64,000 bases of DNA from Bacteroidota bacterium (lineage in GTDB: Bacteria > Bacteroidota > JABWAT01), in the NCBI GenBank assembly GCA_017303995.1, contig JAFLBE010000004.1, forward strand, positions 62,001 through 126,000, written 5' to 3'. This document shows, one piece after another, positions 2,595-53,140 of this stretch. The notes under the pieces are model-generated. The model searched no databases, had not been told where the DNA came from, and saw nothing but the letters and a program-made list of their open reading frames with translations. The position numbers and the translations under genes were made by a program. The first letter of the stretch is position 1, and each line of letters begins with the position of its first letter.

Positions 2595-2924
2595 AAGCTT
2601 AGAAGTTGGAAGTTAGACGAATTAGCAGGAAGTGTGATTTGTAAATGGTTACTAATGAAATGGCCGTTTGTTTTTAGGTAATTTCATATAAATTCCCCTC
2701 ATTTTTAAGGAGGGGTGCCGTAGGCGGGGTGGTTTGGTATTTTGAAAATCTCCAACCTGAAATTCCGGGCGGAACAAGACGGTTCTCCCGCGGATTGCAC
2801 GGATTAACACGGATTAGAAAAACGGTTTTAACAGGAATGTTCAGGATATACAGGATAAATACATCAATTTAAGTTTAATTAAATCCCCCATTAACCATTA
2901 ATCCTTCACCATTAACCATTAATT
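2595..2924. repeat. Gene-free stretch filled with dispersed repeat words
   Basis: No gene is visible in these 330 bases. From left to right they hold AGAAGTTGGAAGTTAG words (2595-2618), a half copy of the GGAGGGG/GGTGGTTT element (2693-2738), the phrase GCGGATTGCACGGATTAACA (from about 2790), a TGTTCAGGATATACAGGAT phrase (about 2838-2858), and CCATTAACCATTAAT words (2886-2924). Similar phrases recur elsewhere in this window. Confidence 0.65.
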
Positions 2925-3971: not shown

Positions 3972-4295
3972 AACCTCTCCGATCCGATTTTTGTGGAAAA
4001 TATTATAAAGGCAAATTACACCACTGTACGTTTAATATCAATAGGTATCTTAATCTTTTTAGGGGGGAAGAAGTTAGAAGTTAGAATTTAGAAGTTAGAA
4101 TTTAGAAGATAGAAGGTAGAGGATTGAAGTCGAGGTCTATTAAAAGCAGGAAATAAACAAACCACCCCTTGCCCCTCCTTTAAAAAAGGAGGGGAATTAT
4201 TCAAAAAGCCGGTATAATAAAAAATAAAACAGCGTGGAATGGTGGTAGCTCCTGAATTTTATTCATCAAAAATAATTTTTTAAACCCATTTTTTG
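3972..4295. repeat. Gene-free stretch with AGAAGTTAGAAGTT words and a half palindromic element
   Basis: Between the oxidoreductase start and the glutamine synthetase stop I see no gene. GAAGTTAGAAGTTAGAATTT words fill 4068-4126. An inverted half copy of the GGAGGGG element (AACCACCCCTTGCCCCTCC and its hairpin partner) lies at 4159-4195. The remainder is AT-rich. The same two word families lie on the other side of the oxidoreductase gene. Confidence 0.6.
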
Positions 4296-10605: not shown

Positions 10606-10740
10606 GGAATTGGATTCCAGATATTGATTATGAAATGGATGAAAAGAATATTGAAGGGAATGAATTAATTGATTTACAGTATAAAATGACGAATGGCGGA
10701 TGGAGGATATCGAGTTGCTGATAGCGAATTTTGACTGGAA

Positions 10741-10818
10741 TATAATGTCACCCCTTCGGGGTTTTTATTACTTTGTTATTGGTTTGCTATAATCATGTCA
10801 GCCCGTTGGGCTTTTAAG
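10741..10818. repeat. Dispersed repeat F, copy 1 (CACCCCTTCGGGG ... CTATAATCATGTCAGCC)
   Basis: The unit has a CCCCTTCGGGG hairpin, a variable middle, then GCTATAATCATGTCAGCCC and a GCCCGTTGGGC hairpin. Copies 2 and 3 are at 16865-16938 and 38631-38733. All three lie between genes and next to TTTTGAATT-type text. Confidence 0.75.
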
Positions 10819-10835: not shown

Positions 10836-10960
10836 TTCCCTTCCTTTTCACAAAGGAGGGGTGGCGAAGCCGGGTTGGTTTGGCTGTTAACTTAAATCCA
10901 AACGAAAACCACCCCATCAGTCTTACGACTGATTTCCCCTCCTTAAAAAGGAGGGGAAAT
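10836..10960. repeat. Dispersed palindromic element E, full copy 1
   Basis: About 125 bp made of four hairpins: an AAAGGAGGGG hairpin, GGCGAAGCC, then GGTTGGTTTGG paired across a 20-nt middle with AAAACCACCCC, then CAGTCTTACGACTG, and a closing CCCCTCCTTAAAAAGGAGGGG hairpin. The whole unit is present in the opposite orientation at 53012-53140. Half copies lie at 2693-2738 and 4159-4195. It resembles REP/BIME-type elements; no transposase is linked. Confidence 0.75.
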
Positions 10961-53011: not shown

Positions 53012-53140
53012 AAACTCCCCTCCTTTTGTAAAGGAGGGGAAATCAGTCGAAAGACTGATGGGGTGGTTTTCTTTGGATTCTGCGATAACCGCCAAACCAC
53101 CCCGGCTTCGCCACCCCTCCTTTAAAAAAGGAGGGGAACT
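53012..53140. repeat. Dispersed palindromic element E, full copy 2 (opposite orientation)
   Basis: CCCCTCCTTTTGTAAAGGAG opens the unit (53017-), then CAGTCGAAAGACTG, GGGGTGGTTTT, a 20-nt middle, CCAAACCACCCCGGCTTCG, and the closing CCCCTCC hairpin. It is the reverse-complement arrangement of copy 1 at 10836-10960 and keeps pairing in every stem. Confidence 0.78.

Follow-up and report, generated by a model that had tools for sequence, protein, structure and literature searches.

The locus at positions 10836-10960 of the window (the whole 64,000-nt stretch analysed, from the 4.31-Mb genome of a Bacteroidota bacterium, G000) raises the question of what kind of repeat it holds and what has spread it. 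The initial annotation described a composite palindromic element there, present again in reverse at 53012-53140, with half copies at 2693-2738 and 4159-4195. The two full and the two half copies are all present at these coordinates in the window sequence, and they belong to a modular, dispersed and structured repeat that recurs in the genome. Their parts, with the triplex roles predicted below, are as follows (the congener is genome G002).

2695..2735, + strand: single half with hairpin, slot TGCCGTAGGC and arm GGGGTGGTTT; the congener orthologue has slot TACCGTAGGC
4159..4194, - strand: single half with arm, 3-nt slot and hairpin; absent from the orthologous place in the congener
10838..10861, + strand: copy 1, left outer hairpin CCCTTCC...GGAGGGG, the predicted Watson-Crick part of triplex unit 1 (from the sequence)
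10862..10871, + strand: copy 1, slot 1, TGGCGAAGCC hairpin cassette (from the sequence)
10872..10881, + strand: copy 1, G-arm 1 (predicted third strand) GGGTTGGTTT, differing by one base from the consensus GGGGTGGTTT
10882..10905, + strand: copy 1, middle of 24 nt, starting GGCTGTT
10906..10915, - strand: copy 1, G-arm 2, predicted third strand of unit 2
10916..10935, - strand: copy 1, slot 2, hairpin cassette ATCAGTC....GACTGAT (GGCTACGCCA in the congener)
10936..10956, - strand: copy 1, right outer hairpin
53017..53039, + strand: copy 2, outer hairpin of the ATCAGTC-type half
53040..53059, + strand: copy 2, slot AAATCAGTCGAAAGACTGAT
53060..53069, + strand: copy 2, G-arm GGGGTGGTTT
53070..53093, no strand: copy 2, middle
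53094..53103, - strand: copy 2, second G-arm
53104..53113, - strand: copy 2, slot TGGCGAAGCC
53114..53136, - strand: copy 2, second outer hairpin

The spread that had been proposed for this element is borne out by the genome. The 125-nt copy finds 46 places by BLAST, and the half-unit pattern GGAGGGGN{0,25}GGNGGTTT has 107 matches against none for the reversed pattern; the hairpin pattern CCCCTCCN{2,16}GGAGGGG has 139, again against none. From the window and 99 loci of the same genome (overlapping, 360 kb), 103 distinct halves could be read, as well as 27 complete inverted pairs ("composites") with middles of 18-29 nt. Four full copies stand in tandem on contig C83 at a spacing of about 169 bp. 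The 27 composites are inverted doublets of palindromes with a variable spacer, which is one criterion of REPIN/RAYT systems. Their middle, previously taken to be free, does differ between copies, but it is partly constant: GGCTGTT beside one arm and AAAGA beside the other recur among the composites. The left arm has no exact match in viral contigs. Adjoining copy 1, at 10740-10818 of the window, the palindromes ATAATGTCACCCCTTCGGGG and TATAATCATGTCAGCCCGTTGGGC resemble those near a Y1 gene (L036) and probably represent a second, RAYT-type repeat family. Around an element on a contig of an Accumulibacter metagenome-assembled genome (MAG; JAFLDO010000038.1, L072), the sequence is the same as at our locus L023, and this is likely a contamination of that MAG.

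A half consists of an outer hairpin CCCCTCC-loop-GGAGGGG, a slot, and an arm GGGG(T/A)GGTTT. The base placed over the sole A.T pair of the stem is T in 101, A in seven and C in one of 109 halves of the genome, so that the triplet requirement (T or A over A.T) is satisfied in 108. Stem families co-vary with their third strands when the letters are paired by eye: GGAGGGG with GGGG(T,A)GG, GGGAGAGGG with GGGTGAGGG, GGAGAAGG with GGATGAGG, and AAAGGGGG with GGGGGATT. Among 233 mirror-asymmetric purine-arm hairpins near genes of the DUF559 family, to which we return below, 88 are followed by a third strand obeying the mirror rule (A read as A or T), compared with 26 for a direct-repeat rule and four for a mirror rule in which A is read as C or G. 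Because the arm obeys the purine-motif triplex code, and because stems and third strands change together, we group the half with the BoxC/PIT/TM_ECO repeats. Each half is, judged by its letters, a predicted intrastrand triplex unit of that type (purine code, G over G·C, T or A over A·T), and the G-arm is its putative third strand, not a stem partner of the other arm.

The slot measures 3-5 nt (TTA, TTG, CTG and others) in 28 of the 103 distinct halves. It is long in the remaining 75, and nearly all of these are hairpins. Unrelated stems occur among the 26 distinct long slots, for example GGCGAAGCC, GCCGTAGGC, GTCCCAACGGGAC, ATCAGTC..GACTGAT, ATCCCGAA..TTCGGGAT and ATCCGGGCACTTCGACTCC..CCGGAT. 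A stem of at least 3 bp is found in 24 of the 26, versus 35% of shuffles, and one of at least 4 bp in 17, versus 11%; the stem of one of the two exceptions starts deeper than the script permits, and the other has a single broken pair. At fixed points of the outer hairpin, one of two species can carry an additional hairpin unit (AGCCTGCCCCGAACGCTTTCGGGG; TTGTAAATCCCGAT..ATCGGG) that the other lacks (L021/L169, L051/L142, L064/L151, L050/L142).

The element folds strongly, with z-scores of -6.4 and -8.5 as RNA and -10.2 as DNA, and none of 200 shuffles was equally good. Its predicted minimum-energy form is not the expected row of four hairpins. In the computed secondary structure without triplex it is a cloverleaf, in which both outer hairpins together make one long stem that carries three arms. 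The cloverleaf lies below the serial four-hairpin fold by 4 to 15 kcal/mol in 14/14 copies (a count that leaves out L001 and L010, the cloverleaf of L001 being seen in a separate fold), and four serial hairpins were accordingly rejected as the main fold. The claim that both copies keep every stem is not strictly right: in the copy at 10836, the left stem reads CCCTTCC and the arm GGGTTGG, with one G-C pair broken. A compensated conservation of all stems did not survive the comparison of more copies. In 10 of the 27 composites the central stem, which the arms of the two halves could form with each other, is broken by a mismatch or an indel without compensation, precisely the kind of copy that had been named in advance as speaking against the claim. 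Six or more of the breaks fall at the one T/A position, which in the triplex reading faces the sole A.T pair and may be either base; a single copy shows compensation. With 10/27 composites broken, we discarded central-stem compensation as a proof of selection on RNA.

A host regulatory structure, that is a bidirectional terminator or an mRNA-stabilising hairpin kept by selection on RNA, would agree with the strong folding and with a median distance of 82 nt to a gene 3' end. However, the 74 sites (47 tandem, 14 convergent, 6 divergent, 7 overlapping a called ORF) resemble the background of 14 gaps of at least 150 nt in the window (9, 3 and 2). Gene context being no different from these gaps, placement as terminators was rejected. 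No Rfam match exceeds the gathering score in the window, and a clear T-tract is lacking. Holder et al. (2015; PMC4666352) further describe PIT elements as devoid of promoter or terminator activity and purine-motif triplexes as not formed in RNA. We regard such a regulatory role as quite improbable.

The evolution of the slots can be followed in the congener, the public MAG BAC1 (G002, JAIUNL01; handle G099 gave identical matches), which is syntenic over almost the whole window with 71-88% identity. At the site orthologous to 53012 the congener has the whole element with the same modules. The half at 2693 is shared with one slot change, that at 4159 is absent, and one half of the congener has no counterpart in the window. 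At 10836 the right flank and the outer hairpin are common to the two genomes, and the congener exhibits slot GGCTACGCCA with AACAACC beside the arm, a layout that an inverted or swapped copy would give. Halves were matched automatically between the genomes through 120 nt of their outer flank, which yielded 28 rows. Two were removed as part of a stretch 100% identical between the genomes (L012/L166), and five for lack of a convincing orthologous partner (L083, L055, L088, L003, L087). Among the 21 orthologous slots retained, 11 are the same, four show a point change and six differ wholesale (L045, L064, L025, L022, L021 and the copy at window 10836, L001). Two more exchanges, L050 and L014, were seen in alignments read by eye. 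In L025/L139, TAA stands opposite GGCTTCACCA with the slot borders intact on both sides; in L064/L151 unrelated hairpins are opposed and the next 80 nt are identical; another slot passes from GTCCCAACGGGAC to GTCCGGCAACTGCCGGAC with an identical flank. The rule of the slot, which allows either some 3 nt or a hairpin of whatever sequence, is kept, and change occurs by wholesale exchange, not by paired substitutions. Such a hairpin-for-hairpin exchange in a fixed slot is an unusual kind of sequence change, in which the structural rule is kept and the sequence is swapped whole. Among the five window sites and 21 locus pairs aligned, there was no clean empty site defining ends or a target duplication. 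The identity of L012 and L166 extends over 3127 bp, while other orthologous stretches of the two genomes differ by several per cent or more; it likely reflects a shared or mis-binned contig, the other explanation being a recent transfer.

Which enzyme could move such a repeat? The initial annotation had pointed to a Y1 (RAYT/IS200-type) transposase acting on a REPIN/BIME element. The genome does contain seven Y1_Tnp genes, and doublets in inverted orientation around a variable spacer resemble REPINs (PMC3116915). The Y1 genes nevertheless keep other company: a unit lies within 400 nt of none of 16 Y1 loci in five genomes (G000, G001, G002, G022, G058). Their flanks hold different palindromes, which vary from gene to gene (own loci L031-L037), and inverted flank repeats occur at 8/16. 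The elements are also found in Y1-poor genomes (one Y1 gene in G022, one weak in G058). Mobilisation by Y1 is thus highly improbable.

The genes bracketed by the units are of a different sort. DUF559 proteins are small and widespread and have no assigned function; we take them to be nucleases of a Vsr-like PD-(D/E)XK fold. The Pfam entry of the family, PF04480, is likewise labelled "unknown function". There are four DUF559 genes in the genome, all bracketed by units. On contig C5, inverted GGAGGGG halves whose slots match (ATCCGGC..GCCGGAT) flank the DUF559 gene at 339-743. Inside the 3' arm of this gene-bearing unit stands GGCTGTTTTC, with which the middle of the miniatures also begins, a match of about 10 nt only. 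The gene on C83 lies within the tandem array of GGAGGGG units; that on C75 is bracketed by CCCCCTCC..GGAGGGGG units and that on C37 by GGAGAAGG..GGATGAGG units. Three of our proteins match PF04480 over the cut-off (E-values from 2.5e-28 to 2.1e-30), the DUF559 protein does so with an E-value of 1.6e-28, and it also matches the solved "Endonuclease-Like Protein" 3hrl (E-value = 3.6e-14). PADLOC gave only weak partial matches. The four genes contrast with about 100 halves in the genome, most copies being far from a DUF559 gene. A DUF559 copy present in the congener and absent in our genome has one end interrupted by another insertion. On our contig C75 (L290, 5102-5389), a 95-aa GIY-YIG gene (PF01541, E-value = 2.2e-14) is enclosed by GGATCCCGGATCAAGTCCGGGATGAC palindromes in inverted orientation, and the congener carries a second DUF559 copy at this site; such a gene between inverted GATCCCGGA-type palindromes may be a parallel case of nuclease and palindrome.

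The association extends to other genomes. We searched PF04480 in 24 element-bearing genomes, in 249 genomes of the phylum of an Accumulibacter MAG (taken to be Pseudomonadota; 86 with a match) and in 394 genomes of our own phylum (221 with a match), and examined 30, 30 and 27 matching loci, respectively. A small DUF559 locus was defined as an open frame of under 300 codons, and units were sought within 400 nt. A triplex-type unit is present at 55 of the 59 small loci (both sides in 37, one side in 18, neither in four), compared with 11 of 226 control windows. The counts for both, one and neither side are 14, 5 and 3 of 22 in the element-bearing genomes, which were chosen as such, 13, 11 and 1 of 25 in Pseudomonadota, and 10, 2 and 0 of 12 in the own-phylum sample, the last two sets being top-scoring matches chosen regardless of units. 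At loci with long frames these counts are 12, 9 and 7 of 28 (control 4/108). As such loci are often near a unit, the link is not confined to stand-alone genes. The unit finder reports nothing at four of the 59 small loci (L202, L207, L210, L239), and L239 was rejected as a triplex-unit case, its flanks matching through a long repeat of a different kind.

Independently of the finder, the best inverted repeat from flank to flank was scored. It reaches at least 40 at 17/22, 15/25 and 5/12 small loci of the three sets and at 2/8, 1/5 and 2/15 long-frame loci, against 0/58 and 2/60 for pieces of the same loci and 0/60 for shuffled loci. The flanks in Pseudomonadota read CCCTCTCCC..GGGAGAGGG-TT-GGGGTGAGGG and similar, with a hairpin slot in some (L245, L247). 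At several DUF559 genes (L205, L213, L219, L247, L255) the stems of the two flanking units match each other, as their slots often do, and the type of unit goes with the gene. In Bacteroidota of other families, single halves adjoin reading frames resembling DUF559. Among 394 Bacteroidota genomes, DUF559 is found in 19 of the 22 with the unit pattern versus 202 of the 372 without it (Fisher p = 0.002, with weak domain matches counted and kinship ignored). One genome with seven pattern matches (G001) and three with the GGAGGGGTG pattern (G094, G162, G358) have no DUF559. Beside one unit (L185, G047) stands a reading frame that by eye resembles a four-helix-bundle (IVP/Avd-like) protein, a candidate for another partner of the unit.

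A DUF559 gene is also found near a published triplex motif. In Escherichia coli K-12, about 170 bp separate ycjD (b1289, annotated DUF559) from TM_ECO no. 9 (1351204-1351239), which is listed in the TM_ECO table of PMC4666352. The 3' end of ycjD is overlapped by a second, degenerate unit. Both units were recognised by eye; they score under the threshold of the finder, and it lists no unit at ycjD. The MG1655 fabI-ycjD-sapF stretch is present at a coverage of at least 80% in 3333 of 5426 E. coli genomes. The fabI-sapF gap is polymorphic (L289, 5164-5828 in MG1655; L299): one strain read through to sapF carries a TetR and efflux gene set, and two further strains show the first genes of this set in the gap. 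These strains therefore do not show a simple excision. A search for a clean empty site at ycjD gave none in the strains read.

That units surround most of the examined small DUF559 genes in two phyla suggests that the DUF559 nuclease, rather than a transposase, moves or rewrites the repeat. The inverted halves bracketing the DUF559 gene on our contig C5 lead us to read the element as an inverted pair of intrastrand triplex units, most likely a gene-less miniature of a DUF559-carrying unit with the same inverted ends; based on these shared ends and on the 10-nt interior match, we give this reading an even chance. In single-stranded DNA, on the lagging strand or during repair, the unit would fold into a hairpin plus third strand, joining both G-tracts regardless of what the slot contains. 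The DUF559 nuclease would recognise or cut the folded unit, and the break would be repaired from another dispersed copy under the guidance of the constant hairpin and arm, the repair copying a slot, a middle or a whole DUF559-bearing unit into the site. The action of the nuclease is proposed from its endonuclease-like fold, assigned by sequence, and from the exchanges in place. Cutting followed by repair from copies would explain a spread without transposase, the exchange of slots in place, the inversion at a site and the breakdown into halves.

The main rival to this nuclease account is that the triplex unit is only a landing site, free-standing homing-type DUF559 genes inserting between inverted units which themselves spread otherwise, by replication slippage or ectopic conversion. 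The gene does stand where the miniature has its 24-nt middle, start or stop codons touch or overlap units (L211, L213, L220), and the majority of units have no DUF559 gene nearby. Yet each DUF559 gene comes with its own type of unit, matching on both sides, and matching stems and often slots fit co-movement better than an invasion of existing sites; we consider the landing-site explanation rather unlikely. A purely passive instability, with replication stalling and template switching among copies, would need no dedicated enzyme, DUF559 being then a repair nuclease kept near hairpins or a gene sharing their preference for variable sites. Constant arms would suffice for the exchange of hairpin for hairpin, and Holder et al. 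(PMC4666352) tie the motifs to local genome variability. Such instability alone would nevertheless leave unexplained why DUF559, and not Y1, stands between inverted units in two phyla, and to this explanation we assign a low probability. A movement driven by the DUF559 nuclease remains our preferred reading.

To our knowledge, the BoxC/PIT/TM repeats, known since the 1990s and present in hundreds of genomes including E. coli K-12, have had neither a known function nor a known mover. If DUF559 serves them, two open questions merge into one that is testable with ycjD in a laboratory strain. In open-licence PubMed Central, with subscription journals and preprints outside the scope, we found no paper linking DUF559 to triplex repeats, and sequence words of our element occur in no paper there. 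By title and abstract, none of the papers naming DUF559 concerns such repeats, and a single paper that brings COG2852 together with palindromes is on phage defence.

The closest known systems are the BoxC/PIT/TM_ECO intrastrand triplex motifs, which Holder et al. (2015; PMC4666352) report from E. coli and more than 260 genomes. In that account the TM_ECO triplex forms in isolated single-stranded DNA, footprinting saw no triplex in vivo, and no mobility genes were found near the E. coli copies. Like those motifs, our units combine a hairpin with a third strand of purines that follows it in mirror order and obeys the same triplet code, and they are intergenic, occurring as inverted pairs of two types in an unstable neighbourhood. 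The second loop is TTA or CCG in E. coli versus TTA, TTG or CTG here, the TTA of TM_ECO type A (PMC4666352) being shared. In contrast, the second loop is here often a hairpin of 10-45 nt. The published search covered loops of 1-6 nt; given this setting, our long-loop halves mark a variant. Unlike the motifs as published there, our units also exchange slots in place and bracket DUF559 genes.

The likeness to REP/BIME/REPIN sequences and their RAYT (TnpA_REP) lies in the small intergenic palindromes, occurring as singlets and as inverted doublets with a variable spacer, and in the single enzyme gene bracketed by its own repeats. The differences are an endonuclease-like DUF559 protein in place of an HUH/Y1 enzyme and a unit that follows the triplex code; moreover, a GTAG-type guide tetranucleotide was not noticed here on informal inspection. 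The inverted ends common to a gene-bearing unit of the same genome (C5, C83) recall MITEs, from which our elements differ in having no linked DDE or Y1 transposase. The GGAGAAGG...GGATGAGG layout around the DUF559 gene of C37 presumably resembles the RIME elements of rhizobia, which are mosaic and intergenic like our repeats (cited in PMC2573895). A small nuclease gene possibly spread by cutting (here proposed) and copying repair is also the trait of free-standing homing endonucleases, with the difference that the target would here be a dispersed structured repeat. It is a tentative proposal, to which we lend somewhat less than even belief, that BoxC/PIT repeats are the DNA ends of widespread mobile or homing units with a DUF559 enzyme. 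Such units would be to a nuclease and a triplex what RAYT-REP is to its transposase and palindrome, with hairpin cassettes exchanged in the triplex loop and gene-less miniatures like the present element.
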